This document shows, piece after piece, positions 40,159-47,864 of a DNA stretch of 64,000 nt. The DNA is from Capnocytophaga cynodegmi DSM 19736 (GTDB lineage: Bacteria; Bacteroidota; Bacteroidia; Flavobacteriales; Flavobacteriaceae): positions 124,001-188,000 of the forward strand of contig NZ_KB900715.1 in the NCBI RefSeq assembly GCF_000379185.1. The letters are read 5' to 3'. A program made the translations under genes and the position numbers. Position 1 is the stretch's first letter. Each line of letters starts with the position of its first letter. Below the pieces are notes generated by a model, which saw nothing but the letters and a program-made list of their open reading frames with translations, had not been told where the DNA came from and did no database searches.

Positions 40159-41529
40159 CTATTTTATATTTAAGTCGTTCAATTGGTTTAGTTCTTGGAT
40201 TAGTTCGGGTTTGGAAGTTAAGAAATCGACCATTTGTAAGGCAGTTTCGGCTTCATTTTTACCGATGTATTTTAGTAACATTGCTTCGGTAGAATGTCCC
40301 GTAACGTTCTTAATTATCGTAGTGGGTAACTTTCCGTATAGGTTGGTCGCAAACGACCGCCTACATACGTGCGAGGTTATAAACTCGTATTTTGGTAGGG
40401 TTACTTTTATGGTCCGTTTGTTACCTTTGCCCTCGTAATTACCTTTATCGTCTTTCTCTATGGCGTTGCCGTTGCGGTCAATCAGTACCGACCTTGTGTG
40501 TGTTATTGGAATATCAATACCCGCCAACTTACATACTTCTTTAATGTATTCGTTAAGACGTTGGATACTGATAGGATAAGGAAGCCCCGCATTTTTTATT
40601 TCTAATATTTCAGAATTAAGCCCCTCGATGATAGGAACGATAACTATTTTGCCTGTTTTTTGTTGTCTTATCCTAACTGCTGGAGTACCATTGTCCAAAT
40701 AAGCATAGTTGGAATGGTCTATTTTTAAAAGGTCGCCCCCACGTTGTCCCAAATGACAACCCAACAAAAGCCACTTACGGGCGTTGTGTAGTTGTAAGTT
40801 TGTTATTTTGCAGTCTCTTATCTGTTGGAGTTCCTGAGGATTGAGGTATATAGGTAACTCTTTTTCGGGTGTACCTTTGGCTAATTTAGGCAGTTGGGGG
40901 CTTGTCTCAATGCCTAATGTATTTGCTTCGTTGCATACGGCTTTGAGGTTGTCCATTAGTTTGAGGGCGTAACTATCTTTATGCTGTCTTGTATTTATTA
41001 GCCAATCCAGAAAAAGGCGTTCAAACTTTAAATCTATATCCTTTGCCTTGTAATGCTTTCGGGTTTTGGATTGATAGGCGTTGAAAATGGTTTTTAATGT
41101 TTGATAGGATTTTACCCTACTTTGAGAAAGTCCCAATGTACCCCGTCCGTTTTTGCGTGTGTGGGCGGTTTGTATGATGTAATCGATAAGGTCAAGGATA
41201 AATGCACTTTGTCCCGTGTTGGGGTCGTCTATTCGTTTGAAAAAAATATCAATTTGAGTTTGTAGCCAATCGGCATTAACGGGGTCGCCTTGCTGTTGGG
41301 CTTGGTTTAGGCTGTTTTCAATGAATAGTTTTAAAGTGCTGAGGTCAGTTGCGAGGTTTTTATTTTCGGGACTTGTGGGCTTAGGTTCTTTCTTTTTGGC
41401 ACTCCATTGGTCGGGGTCGATGAGTAAGCCCGTTTTTTTGATATAGTCTTTCCCACGTTGTAGGTTCAAACGTACGTATATGGTTGCGGGGTTGGTCTTA
41501 CTTTTGACCAAAAATGTAACGGACGGCAT
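40159..41529 (-). CDS. tyrosine recombinase/integrase of the element
   Basis: 456 residues. It has an N-terminal arm-binding/SAM-like domain (VTFLVKSKTNPATIYVRLNL), a core-binding domain (about 120-215, QSRVKSYQTLKTIFNAY) and the catalytic domain. Catalytic residues visible are Arg in GQRGGDLL (about 262), His and Arg in HVCRRSFATN (about 385-388), His in TGHSTE and Tyr in LLKYIGK (about 418). It is next to the distal att copy, as expected. Its promoter is at 41553-41583, and its leader carries GTTTTAGAAAAGT. It starts a two-gene unit with fic. Confidence 0.95.
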   Translation of the reverse strand: MPSVTFLVKSKTNPATIYVRLNLQRGKDYIKKTGLLIDPDQWSAKKKEPKPTSPENKNLATDLSTLKLFIENSLNQAQQQGDPVNADWLQTQIDIFFKRIDDPNTGQSAFILDLIDYIIQTAHTRKNGRGTLGLSQSRVKSYQTLKTIFNAYQSKTRKHYKAKDIDLKFERLFLDWLINTRQHKDSYALKLMDNLKAVCNEANTLGIETSPQLPKLAKGTPEKELPIYLNPQELQQIRDCKITNLQLHNARKWLLLGCHLGQRGGDLLKIDHSNYAYLDNGTPAVRIRQQKTGKIVIVPIIEGLNSEILEIKNAGLPYPISIQRLNEYIKEVCKLAGIDIPITHTRSVLIDRNGNAIEKDDKGNYEGKGNKRTIKVTLPKYEFITSHVCRRSFATNLYGKLPTTIIKNVTGHSTEAMLLKYIGKNEAETALQMVDFLTSKPELIQELNQLNDLNIK

Positions 41530-41957: not shown

Positions 41958-44468
41958 CTATTTCTTTCTTTTCTTTTCATAATCAAAATACTTTTCTTTC
42001 TCTTTTCTAATTTGCACCAAGCGATAATTTTCAGTTGCAATAACAAAGCTAGTAAACTTATGATTTGTTTGGATTTCTTGCAATTTCTCAATGATACTTT
42101 CTGCTGTATTTCGGTTTTGAAGTCCGTGAACAACAAGCCAAGTTTCATCAGGGTTGTAAACATCTTCTGACACAGAAATTTTATCCGAAATAGTAGCCAA
42201 CTTCTCAATAAGTTGCAATTTAACTTCTTCCCTATTTTCCGTAGAAACATCAGCAAGAACTACTTTCCAAGACCTCGTCTTTTCATCGGAAACAAACTCT
42301 TCTTTCTCAATATTATTCAATTCTTCCAATAATTCAGCAGCAAGTTTACTTTCATCTGTTTCAGGATAATTAACCTTAACTTGTTCAAGAGCTTCACGAT
42401 AAGATACAACGCCATACAAACGAGCAATCGCATCAGCCTTTAACATTTCCAATTTGGGAGCTACCGCTGTTTCACGGAAAGAAAGTCTATTTTCGTCCAA
42501 ATTTTGCAGAATTTCTAAAATTTTTCCTTTCTGAAAATCAGCTGTAAGCGTATCCAAAAGTTCTTGAGCTTTCTGGTCTTTCTGCTGTTGAGAAGATATA
42601 TTTCCTTTCAAAATACTAACATAATCTGACTCTGGGAATTTGTTAAATAATTGATTTTTAAAATCTTCAGATTTTGAACTATTCAAATCGAGATAATTTT
42701 TATACAACTCATAGAGGGCTCCAACTTCTAAGTTAGCATCTGGATTGGCATTTAGCAAACTCTCCAAACGACTGATAGATAATTCATTGTCTCCAAATTT
42801 TGCTCTATATAAAACTCCTAATTGATATAAAGCCTGATTTCTATCTTTTTCTAATTGTATTATTTCAATTTCCGATTTTGGTAATTTTTCAACAAAAGAT
42901 TCTGCTGTTACAAAATCATGCTCAATAGCAACTAACTCACTATCAAATTCTTCCAAAGATTGTGTAGTTGCTTTTTTTACCTTTGACGACCAGCGCCAAT
43001 TATCTTCCAATGCACGATTTCCCCAATACTGCTGAAATTGTTGCTTCCCGTAGGCAATAGCCATCGGATTGTAAAAATAAAACTTCCCTCCTTGTTGCTC
43101 AGGAAGATTTTGAACATAAAATCCTGAACCTAAATCTTCTGCAGAAGTCATATTTTTTTGCTTCTGTTCTACAACCTTTTGCACGGAATCAATGTGCTTT
43201 TGGAAAAAACTTAATTGCTCCTCTTTGGATAATCTTGCTATTTTTATAATGCTATCATTCTGTTTTACAACATACTCAAGTTCCGTAATTTTAGCTAAAT
43301 TTTCCTTTTTTCGCTCGATGTAAAGACGCTCAAAAGTATGTTCTGGAATATAAGCCAACGTACTATCCAAATGGTGGTATGCTCCTGTATAATCTTTTTG
43401 TTCAAACAGAATTTCTGCAAGTTGTTCGTGTGTTTTTGCTTTAAGAGAATTATTTTCTTTATTGTTTTTCAACGACTTACGATAGAAACTCGTAGCAATT
43501 ACTTTGTTGTTTTCTTGAGTTAATGACCCGTGCATAAAATAAAGAACATCTAACAAATCCTTATGCTCATAACGTTTTTCTAATTTTGTTAAATATTCCA
43601 AGAATTCTTGTTTCTGCTCAGGAGAAAAATCTTTATTTCGAGCTTTTCCTGCTTGAGCTTCTACCCACAATTTCCGTGAAATTTTCCAGTTCAAATCAAT
43701 AACTTTTTCATAGGCAACAACGGCGGAATCTCTCTGTTTTTGCTTCTCATAAAGCTGAGCAGCAATAAAATAATATCTTCCTCTGAGTAACTTATTTTTA
43801 GTAAACTTTCCTGCCAAGTAAAGGGCTTCAGCTGCGTTGGGATACATTTCTTGATTGATATACGCCTGACCTAACGTTGCATAAGCTTCTGCTTTATCAT
43901 TTCTACGTAATTTTTCAGTCTCCAACAATTCGTGAAGTTTTTCTATAGCAATTTTATCTTTTCCCAACCGAAGATTTGTTTTCTGTGCCCAAATAGCCGC
44001 TTCGGGAATACGCTCACTTTTTCCGTAGTTTGTAAGTAAATGGTTAAAAGCCTCTAAAGCAGGAAGAAAACGTTCGTTGTAATAACGTGATTTTCCTAAC
44101 AGAACGTATGCGTCATCAATTTTATAATTCCGTTGGACACCCTTGAAAACCATTGAATGCAGCTGAATTGTTTTGATAGCTTTTTCCTCCGCTCGTTCAA
44201 AATTTGGATTTTCAATACCATCTAATTGTATTTTTCCTGACATTTTGATAGGTTCCACAGGTAAAACCTCGCTAAAATTATCTTGGTATTGCTCTTGAAG
44301 TTCCTTTAATCCCAAATCAAAAGCCTCTTCACCATTGAAAAGAACATTATACTTGGTAACGATGGGTTGCATTTGCCGATTGTAGTACGTGTTTGCATTA
44401 GGAGTACACCCAAACACAAGCAACTGAATCACAGCAAAAAAAGAAAAATATTGAATACGTTTTTTCAT
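41958..44468 (-). CDS. sprE: SprE/PorW-like tetratricopeptide lipoprotein (type IX secretion, gliding)
   Basis: 836 residues with a lipoprotein signal (VFGC, Cys at about 21). YYNRQMQPIVTKYNVLFNGE near the start, then many TPR motifs (AYATLGQAYINQEMYPNAAE, KLWVEAQAGKARNKD, ...), then a 130-residue C-terminal SPOR-like region (EEVKLQLIEKLATISDKISV, TSFVIATENYRLVQIRKE). The layout fits SprE/PorW, an outer-membrane lipoprotein needed for type IX secretion and gliding in Flavobacteriia. The identity rests on length, lipobox and start motif. It is the last gene of the sufS, dipeptidase, sprE run. Confidence 0.75.
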   Translation of the reverse strand: MKKRIQYFSFFAVIQLLVFGCTPNANTYYNRQMQPIVTKYNVLFNGEEAFDLGLKELQEQYQDNFSEVLPVEPIKMSGKIQLDGIENPNFERAEEKAIKTIQLHSMVFKGVQRNYKIDDAYVLLGKSRYYNERFLPALEAFNHLLTNYGKSERIPEAAIWAQKTNLRLGKDKIAIEKLHELLETEKLRRNDKAEAYATLGQAYINQEMYPNAAEALYLAGKFTKNKLLRGRYYFIAAQLYEKQKQRDSAVVAYEKVIDLNWKISRKLWVEAQAGKARNKDFSPEQKQEFLEYLTKLEKRYEHKDLLDVLYFMHGSLTQENNKVIATSFYRKSLKNNKENNSLKAKTHEQLAEILFEQKDYTGAYHHLDSTLAYIPEHTFERLYIERKKENLAKITELEYVVKQNDSIIKIARLSKEEQLSFFQKHIDSVQKVVEQKQKNMTSAEDLGSGFYVQNLPEQQGGKFYFYNPMAIAYGKQQFQQYWGNRALEDNWRWSSKVKKATTQSLEEFDSELVAIEHDFVTAESFVEKLPKSEIEIIQLEKDRNQALYQLGVLYRAKFGDNELSISRLESLLNANPDANLEVGALYELYKNYLDLNSSKSEDFKNQLFNKFPESDYVSILKGNISSQQQKDQKAQELLDTLTADFQKGKILEILQNLDENRLSFRETAVAPKLEMLKADAIARLYGVVSYREALEQVKVNYPETDESKLAAELLEELNNIEKEEFVSDEKTRSWKVVLADVSTENREEVKLQLIEKLATISDKISVSEDVYNPDETWLVVHGLQNRNTAESIIEKLQEIQTNHKFTSFVIATENYRLVQIRKEKEKYFDYEKKRKK

Positions 44469-44559: not shown

Positions 44560-45303
44560 TTATTCGCATTCCCATACAAAATCTTCTACTTTTGAATTAA
44601 TTTCAGGACGAAATTCATAATGCCACCATTCGGAGTAAATCGACTTAAAATTGTGTTTATGCAAAATTTCTTTCAAAAGTTTTCGATTTTTCAACACTTC
44701 TTCAGGCAAATTTGTGTAAGTATGATGTGCTTCCTTTCCAAAAAAATCAAAAGGAGTTCCCATATCAAGCTCTTTTTCATTCATATCAACCAGAGTCAAA
44801 TCCACTGCAGCTCCTCGATTGTGTTTTGAACCTTTGGCAGGATTTGCTACGTAATGCGTTCCTGGCAAAATTGCCCACATTTTTTTCTGCACTGAAAGAG
44901 GACGATAACAATCAAATAATTTAATACGAAAACCTAATTTTTTAAACTCTTCATTAGCAGCCAACAAAGCCTTTGCTGTAGCTTTACGCAAATAGCATTC
45001 AGGACAATCATATACCGCTTGTTTCAAAAAATTATCTTCAGTAGCATACTTGATATCCAAAATAAAATCATCTGATAAACTCTTGATATTCACAAAGTCG
45101 GTATGAGGTGATATTTTTTCTTCTTTTTTAGAAACATCAATCTCGTCATCTTCATTTTCTGTAATAAGTACATTATCAGCCTTATATATATTTTCTACTT
45201 TAACTATATCTATTTCCATTTTAGCAGAACGACTTTCCTTATTATTATTTTTACAAGAAAAAAATAACACAGAGAGGAAAAGAAGAAAAAGTACGTTTTT
45301 CAT
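44560..45303 (-). CDS. D-alanyl-D-alanine dipeptidase, VanX/DdpX type (M15D), lipoprotein
   Basis: 247 residues with lipobox FFSC (Cys17). The core has SKHNRGAAVDLTLVD, the zinc-binding SxHxxGxAxD pattern, and EWWHYEF, holding the catalytic Glu and third zinc ligand. The family hydrolyses D-Ala-D-Ala in peptidoglycan turnover; VanX members also give vancomycin resistance, but no vanH or vanA-like ligase is nearby, so a housekeeping role is likely. It lies between sufS and the sprE-like gene. Confidence 0.93.
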   Translation of the reverse strand: MKNVLFLLFLSVLFFSCKNNNKESRSAKMEIDIVKVENIYKADNVLITENEDDEIDVSKKEEKISPHTDFVNIKSLSDDFILDIKYATEDNFLKQAVYDCPECYLRKATAKALLAANEEFKKLGFRIKLFDCYRPLSVQKKMWAILPGTHYVANPAKGSKHNRGAAVDLTLVDMNEKELDMGTPFDFFGKEAHHTYTNLPEEVLKNRKLLKEILHKHNFKSIYSEWWHYEFRPEINSKVEDFVWECE

Positions 45304-46739: not shown

Positions 46740-47864
46740 ATGCCTTTATTTTATTTACAACCTATTTCAAATTCAATCACTTCGCAAGAATACAAACAGC
46801 AACAAATTGGTTTTCAAATTAAAAGACATATTTTGGAAGACGGATTACCTGATTTGGAAGGAGTTAAAATTGCATTTATCTGTATTGAAAATTCAGCTCA
46901 AAAAATGACCAATTTTCGGAAGAAATTATATTCCCTTTATGTAGGAAATTGGAATTTCACGATAGCAGATTTAGGAAATTTGATAGAAAGTCCTTCGGTA
47001 AAGGACACTTACTTTGCTATCAGAGAAATGGTCAGCTATCTTGCAAAAAAAGGAATTACTTTAATCGTGGTTGGTGGCGAACAGCATTTAACATACGCCT
47101 TGTACCGAAGTTTTGATGAGTTAGAACAAATGGTAAATTTGGTAAGCGTTGATGCAAAATTCGACTTTAATGATGAGGAAGAACTATTTTCAGAAAACTC
47201 TTATTTTAGTAAAATCCTGACAGAAAGCCCCAATAACTTATTCGACTTCACCAACTTAGGTTATCAATCTTATTATGTGGCACAAGAAGAGTTAGATTTG
47301 CTCGACAAAATGTGCTTCGATGCCTACCGATTAGGAAATGTGGTAAATGACTTACCTTCAATCGAACCAGCGATGCGTGATGCAGACCTTGTAAGTGTGG
47401 ATATGACAAGCGTTCAAGCTCGTGATGTAAATAGCGAAACGGGCTACGTGAATGGATTTTCGAATCGAGAAATTTGTACTATTTCTCGTTATGCAGGTAT
47501 CAGCAATAATGTACAAGTTTACGGAATTTTTAATATCCCACAAACGGAATTGGCTTCGGAATTAGTAGCTGAAATGATTTGGTATTTCTATGAGGGATAT
47601 AATTTCAGAATCAAAGAATTACCTATTGTTAATGATGACAACTATACAAAATATATCGTTCCAATTGATGATGTTCAAATCGAATTTTTTAAAAGCAATG
47701 CCACAGGTCGTTGGTGGATGAAACCAGGAAGTGATAAATTTTCAGGACACCAAAATCACTTACCTTTAGGCTTGATGCCTTGCAATCAAAAGGAATATAT
47801 CGAAGCAACTCAAGGAATTATACCTGAAAGATGGTGGAAATCTTACAGAAAATCAATGCAATAA
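46740..47864 (+). CDS. arginase/formimidoylglutamase-fold protein with altered metal ligands
   Basis: 374 residues of the ureohydrolase fold: VVGGEQHLTYALYRSFDEL, VSVDAKFDFNDEE, SVDMTSVQARDVNSETGYVN. In true arginases these three motifs are GGDHS, DAHxD and DxDxxD. Here the second has Lys for His (DAKFD) and the third has DMTS, so two metal ions cannot both be bound in the usual way. Homologues in Flavobacteriia are annotated formimidoylglutamase. It may have lost hydrolase activity and become a binding protein. It is convergent with the histidine kinase gene. Confidence 0.8.
   Translation: MPLFYLQPISNSITSQEYKQQQIGFQIKRHILEDGLPDLEGVKIAFICIENSAQKMTNFRKKLYSLYVGNWNFTIADLGNLIESPSVKDTYFAIREMVSYLAKKGITLIVVGGEQHLTYALYRSFDELEQMVNLVSVDAKFDFNDEEELFSENSYFSKILTESPNNLFDFTNLGYQSYYVAQEELDLLDKMCFDAYRLGNVVNDLPSIEPAMRDADLVSVDMTSVQARDVNSETGYVNGFSNREICTISRYAGISNNVQVYGIFNIPQTELASELVAEMIWYFYEGYNFRIKELPIVNDDNYTKYIVPIDDVQIEFFKSNATGRWWMKPGSDKFSGHQNHLPLGLMPCNQKEYIEATQGIIPERWWKSYRKSMQ

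Follow-up and report, generated by a model that had tools for sequence, protein, structure and literature searches.

The locus analysed here raises the question of what a protein with the shape of an arginase does when the residues that hold the metals in arginases are altered. The window, i.e., the whole 64,000-nucleotide stretch of Capnocytophaga cynodegmi DNA that was analysed, contains an ATG-initiated open reading frame (ORF) with exact bounds at 46740 to 47864 (+). It encodes a 374-amino-acid protein, referred to below as the pseudo-arginase, which is the sole member of its family found in this genome, and no signal sequence was seen in it by eye. The original prediction was that its three metal motifs (GGEQHL, DAKFD, and DMTSVQ) are changed, and the exact ORF and its translation agree with that. 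Metal motif 1 reads GGEQH in place of the arginase GGDHS (residues 112 to 116; 47073 to 47087, +), or GGEQHL if the next residue is counted (residues 112 to 117; nt 47073 to 47090), and Q115 sits at the first His position. Metal motif 2 is DAKFD instead of DAHxD (residues 138 to 142; 47151 to 47165, +), in which K140 replaces His, and metal motif 3 is DMTSVQ instead of DxDxxD (residues 221 to 226; 47400 to 47417, +), in which T223 replaces the second Asp.

Alignment of the family profile to solved ureohydrolases placed the six ligand positions at Q115, D138, K140, D142, D221, and T223, of which the window protein retains three (D138, D142, and D221), both His positions and one Asp being changed. 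The six-residue ligand set of a binuclear manganese centre, with either Asn or His accepted at the first position, is thus incomplete in the window protein. Loss of the central His and of Asp residues had been predicted; the former is borne out by K140, but a single Asp ligand out of four is gone. Likewise, GGEQHL is present as described, but it is a local version of a motif that reads GG(S/T)QD or GA(S/T)QD in most of the family (GGEQH recurs at Capnocytophaga locus L106, and L107 has GGEQQ), and the first His is missing from real formimidoylglutamases too: in the same alignment, the enzymes of B. subtilis (3m1r) and T. cruzi (4mxr) carry Asn there. Position 115 is therefore a weak marker, and the informative changes are those that put Lys in place of the DAHxD His and Thr in place of an Asp of DxD. 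A canonical arginase-family gene on another contig (L001), the one other PF00491 match in the whole genome, reads GGEHS, DAHTD, and DLDAFD.

The arginase fold itself, which had been described as well kept, was confirmed by structure prediction and fold comparison. The AlphaFold2 model, built with 45 sequences, has a pLDDT of 85.8 and a pTM of 0.87, and it shows a three-layer arginase (ureohydrolase) fold domain at residues 13 to 293 (46776 to 47618, +; AlphaFold2 and VIA-align). The best VIA-align match was the T. cruzi formiminoglutamase 4myl (Z 30.1, rmsd 2.3 over 256 residues, spanning residues 19 to 291), while true arginases reach Z values of 22 to 23 in the same comparison. The Pfam Arginase model PF00491 matches the protein with 38 bits against a gathering score of 22, and it matches 35 of the 40 members of family set A2 at an E value of 0.001. 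The HutG equivalog model TIGR01227 is still the best NCBIfam model, yet it gives only 31.4 bits against a cut-off of 229.15, which supports the suspicion that the name formimidoylglutamase is unwarranted here. On the sequence, the pseudo-arginase would thus be an arginase-shaped protein without the metal site that arginases need.

The homologue alignment revealed that the change is general. The family set comprised 166 distinct sequences, the window protein included, all picked for having a residue at position 325, so that conservation of W325 and of the C-terminal module is partly built in by the selection; three sequences without a residue there (L102 to L104) were set aside. Three ligands are kept in 149 sequences, four in 8, two in 4, and one in 5; four is the maximum, and none of the 166 keeps all six. 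With three of six ligands in the window protein and no complete set in the family, a binuclear manganese site is very unlikely, as had been proposed. The trio D138/D142/D221 is intact in 154 of the 166 sequences, and basic residues occur at position 140 in 135 and at position 226 in 141 (Gln in the window protein). In f2, neither of the two members has more than two ligands, and in f5 the same holds for four of five. Capnocytophaga gingivalis L109 has ASGVE, SPLFG, and DMAGVQ as its loops, and D221 is the only ligand left; with D138 and D142 lost, this homologue (L109, 7501 to 8589) has the most degraded metal site seen in Capnocytophaga. All of these ligand-poor members (f2, f5, and L109) have W325, and all but L091 (Ser) have C348. 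Across the family, Q176, G239, and W281 are found in 166 of 166 sequences, E209, P210, R213, and C348 in 165, and Y353 in 164; W325 is also found in all 166, in rows picked by having a residue there. The family may be viewed as a large natural series in which an enzyme fold loses its metal site stepwise while bearing a new module. The set-aside L102 to L104, relatives from other classes of the phylum, have five or six ligands but no C-terminal module, which would fit an origin of the family in an active member of the formiminoglutamase branch.

The prediction that the protein is under selection was strengthened, and the selection is strong and purifying, since dN/dS values were 0.018 to 0.074 in the 10 Flavobacteriaceae pairs with finite dS (0.69 to 2.09). 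The nearest named relatives of the window protein are from Capnocytophaga (81% and 70% identity); dS was saturated in three Capnocytophaga pairs, with pS 0.80 and pN 0.11 for the window protein versus L106. A sequencing error or a pseudogene was rejected, because the ORF is intact, a like motif change occurs in 165 other distinct sequences, and dN/dS is well below 1. Because most relatives of the bacterium retain a closely similar copy, the pseudo-arginase probably does an important job.

The C-terminal module, residues 294 to 374 (47619 to 47861, +), lies beyond the range matched by solved arginases and outside the span of most VIA-align rows; it is specific to this family, and its conserved residues are W325, W326, C348, and Y353. 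When residues 265 to 374 were analysed alone, Foldseek gave no match at an E value of 0.001 or better, the best VIA-align Z was 3.6, and the best E value in a sequence search was 0.73. A known fold for this part was therefore dropped. Since the model of residues 265 to 374 is only moderate (pLDDT 79.1, pTM 0.63), a new fold is not claimed either. In two f5 proteins of 277 to 278 amino acids (L088 and L089), the N-terminal half is strongly reduced and the C-terminal module is retained.

The gene was found in 146 of 149 genomes of Flavobacteriaceae, including 125 of 125 high-quality ones, and the three genomes that miss it are 88% complete. In the class, probably to be taken as Bacteroidia without Bacteroidales, 276 of 295 genomes have the gene, usually in a single copy; among these positives, G491, G520, and G522 have scores typical of ordinary arginases (E values of 1e-17 to 1e-19) and may lie outside the family. 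It is also present in 60 of 60 genomes of the genus of G659. These data indicated that the pseudo-arginase gene is a core gene of Flavobacteriaceae that is widespread in the class, and that the altered metal site is a property of the family and not a quirk of one genome. The original prediction did not cover this distribution, nor the C-terminal module, the topA/gldKLMN neighbourhood, or the earlier examples of metal-free proteins with an arginase fold. Seven near-complete genomes (at least 99%) have GldM and lack the gene, which means that parts of the class can do without it. One contig titled Bifidobacterium breve (L130) carries a flavobacterial homologue with gldK downstream and represents a mislabelled or mixed assembly.

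Gene neighbourhoods were then compared. In the 80 named Flavobacteriaceae loci, topA lies directly upstream of the pseudo-arginase gene in 74 and gldK directly downstream in 76. The four loci without gldK are all from Capnocytophaga, topA is not adjacent there either, and in the genome of the window gldK-L-M-N is on a different contig (L105). From topA to the gene, the median gap is 3 nt (at most 30 nt in 56 of 74 loci); from the gene to gldK it is 237.5 nt (minimum 55, at most 100 nt in 2 of 76 loci), all gaps being lower bounds that use the first possible start codon. A further 56 loci, mostly from other families and one from the genus of the window, were chosen by hand and are thus non-random; their neighbour clusters, including gld and mur, were named by eye except where Pfam is cited. 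Within two genes, topA occurs in 20 of these loci, a gldK/gldJ-type gene in 19, and a PorP/SprF-type gene in 18 (confirmed by Pfam PF11751 for one locus). The order topA-gene-porP-gldK-L-M-N recurs, and gldL, gldM, and gldN are each found at a distance of up to five genes in 14 loci. Four loci instead show the order gene, murF, and a gldJ-type gene that lies on the opposite strand. In 6 of 10 f4 loci, the next gene belongs to a single cluster, identified by Pfam as an S13 D-Ala-D-Ala carboxypeptidase in the two checked. The f3, f4, f5, and f8 loci of this set had no topA up to five genes away.

Several other genes were noted near the pseudo-arginase gene in the window. An M15 D-Ala-D-Ala dipeptidase (Pfam) is encoded at 44560 to 45303 (-); elsewhere, murF or the S13 D-Ala-D-Ala carboxypeptidase gene neighbours the pseudo-arginase gene, and this parallel may be chance. 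A few kilobases away, at 41958 to 44468 (-), an 836-amino-acid TPR lipoprotein-like protein (Pfam TPR) is encoded, which we take to resemble SprE/PorW and hence to be related to the type IX secretion system (T9SS). A tyrosine recombinase with Arm-DNA-bind_5 (Pfam) at 40159 to 41529 (-) possibly marks a mobile element near the new site of the gene.

The neighbourhood suggests an accessory or assembly factor in the cytosol that serves the T9SS/gliding machinery and acts on GldL/GldM or on GldK/GldJ biogenesis, an explanation that we consider unlikely. It draws on the 76 of 80 loci with gldK directly downstream, on the recurrence of the gldK-L-M-N order in other families, and on the four loci with murF and a gldK/gldJ-type gene; in addition, with the family and order of the window left out, a same-strand gldM lies within 10 kb in 39 of the 65 genomes, out of 295, that appear in both sets of matches listed. 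Co-occurrence points the same way: at an E value of 0.001, 268 of 295 genomes have both the gene and GldM, 7 have neither, 8 the gene only, and 12 GldM only, an odds ratio of about 19.5 that is not corrected for phylogeny. Genomes less than 90% complete account for 5 of the 12 GldM-only and 6 of the 8 gene-only cases; two of the latter, G529 and G594, have SprA, and their missing GldM may reflect an assembly gap. Retention of the gene without GldM argues against such a factor. In the genus of G659, GldM exceeds the cut-off in 51 of 60 genomes, leaves a broken trace in one (G696), and has no match in 8, including three single-contig assemblies (G706, G734, and G743). All 60 keep the pseudo-arginase, although a T9SS component should be lost with the T9SS, and its scores in the 8 GldM-less genomes (375.5 to 395.9 bits) fall within the range of the genus (371.8 to 399.4 bits). 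Thus, the gene outlives the loss of GldM in at least this genus. Of four gene-only genomes checked for SprA, G659, the sole one of the 8 GldM-less genomes tested, and G489 have neither SprA nor GldK over the cut-off. Conversely, the 12 GldM-only genomes suggest that T9SS can exist without the pseudo-arginase, the spacing ties the gene to topA and not to gldK, and the genome of the window keeps the two apart on separate contigs. A T9SS component, favoured at first by the gldKLMN synteny, was therefore lowered by the retention without GldM and the measured spacing; the gene order makes such a guess too easy. The T9SS motor thus seems to have been lost in the genus of G659, perhaps repeatedly. 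We take Fjoh_1852 to be the locus tag of the F. johnsoniae homologue. In the open-access literature, we found no work tying the formimidoylglutamase/arginase family to type IX secretion or gliding, apart from one paper on a duck pathogen that was listed for gldK and arginase, and none on gldK, gldL, and topoisomerase in one operon; the gliding-track paper PMC12635249 does not mention arginase, formimin-, formimid-, or Fjoh_18, and PMC8986121 and PMC11885536 yielded no mention of the homologue by term search.

Three further explanations keep closer to enzymology. Near-invariant residues off the old metal site (Q176 in 166 of 166 sequences; E209, R213, and C348 in 165) would suit an enzyme that works without metal at a new active site, which Cys348, Glu209, Arg213, and Trp residues might form, but no neighbour naming a pathway recurs across the lineages of the 56 loci, residues 265 to 374 lack a confident structural match, and no known catalytic domain was recognised, which makes this quite improbable. 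The joint retention of three Asp in 154 of 166 sequences, together with the Asn found at the first His position of genuine formimidoylglutamases, could instead reflect a metalloenzyme that still binds a single metal at the A site of arginases (presumably D138, D142, D221, and Q115), with Lys140 filling the B site, to which we assign position 140. The single zinc of the HDAC type uses the B site. We regard this as highly improbable, since the protein persists where the Asp trio is broken, in f2, in most of f5, and in C. gingivalis L109, and the B site carries Lys or Arg here. Finally, the protein could be a non-catalytic subunit of a canonical ureohydrolase, in the manner of MetCb in metformin hydrolase, which PMC11271267 describes as a metal-free binder of MetCa; the canonical L001 would provide a partner in the genome of the window. 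There is hardly any chance of this arrangement: L001 is on another contig, whereas the MetCb gene lies beside that of its active partner, and the pseudo-arginase is the only PF00491 match in G043, G044, G090, G116, G067, and G136, four of which are at least 96% complete. These six come from 14 genomes checked for PF00491, a non-random set picked as small or match-poor. A MetCb-type pairing with a canonical arginase is thus unlikely for the pseudo-arginase, and this candidate was lowered.

We therefore favour, as fairly likely, that the pseudo-arginase is a widespread housekeeping pseudo-ureohydrolase that is non-hydrolytic and acts by binding, and not a dedicated part of the T9SS. In this protein, the binuclear metal centre would be replaced by a charge network, in which Lys or Arg at position 140 and Lys or Arg at position 226 (in most members; Gln in the window protein) may stand among the kept Asp residues. 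Such a network could make the domain a stable, non-hydrolytic scaffold that would act in the cytosol by binding a partner or ligand, with a putative binding surface of Q176, E209-P210-R213, R250-Y251-G253, and W281-Y282 and, from the C-terminal module, W325-W326-C348-Y353. The gldKLMN neighbourhood may then be a relic of an old topA-pseudoarginase-gldKLMN gene order, and because the two genes are tightly packed, TopA would be the first candidate partner, by gene spacing only. Several observations speak against parts of this reading. Several lineages have the gene at a distance from topA, the joint conservation of D138, D142, and D221 (154 of 166 sequences) exceeds what a pure scaffold would require, and the co-occurrence with GldM and the two arrangements near gldK/gldJ-type genes suit a T9SS or envelope role. 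A wider proposal, which we offer tentatively and to which we give a low chance, is that the pseudo-arginase is a so far undescribed core protein of most families of the class: a metal-free protein of arginase fold, extended by a new C-terminal module, that serves as a regulator or scaffold, works with topoisomerase I or couples housekeeping to the envelope machinery and is important for growth. The case is one of a conserved, class-wide gene whose resemblance to an enzyme family is contradicted by its own residues and, if it is important for growth or the envelope, of a component of Flavobacterium and Capnocytophaga biology that has been overlooked.

Among known systems, the closest fold is that of formimidoylglutamase (HutG; 4mxr/4myl and 3m1r), with Z values of 28.1 to 30.1 and rmsd values of 2.3 to 2.6, and the motif wording is similar, the T. 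cruzi enzyme reading GGGND, DSHLD, and DVDS. Unlike HutG, the window protein has K140 and T223 in place of ligands and an additional C-terminal module, and it falls about 198 bits short of the HutG cut-off. The arginase-like protein of T. brucei (4RHI to 4RHQ), inactive and without key catalytic residues according to PMC10820115, also has an arginase fold, one that evolved without a manganese cluster as worded in the title of a 2015 paper. It compares to the pseudo-arginase with Z values of 22.3 to 22.9, and, to judge from its entry titles (R151H and S149D/S153D), Arg is native at the His position of DAHxD, a basic residue as in most of the pseudo-arginase family. It has Ser where the family mostly keeps the two Asp of this motif, and its aligned range ends at 294 to 299, so the C-terminal module is not common to both. 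MetCb/MfmB is a ureohydrolase-fold pseudoenzyme that binds the catalytic MetCa; five of its six ligands are changed, in contrast to the three that the pseudo-arginase keeps. The T. brucei protein and MetCb are both precedents for metal-free proteins with an arginase fold.
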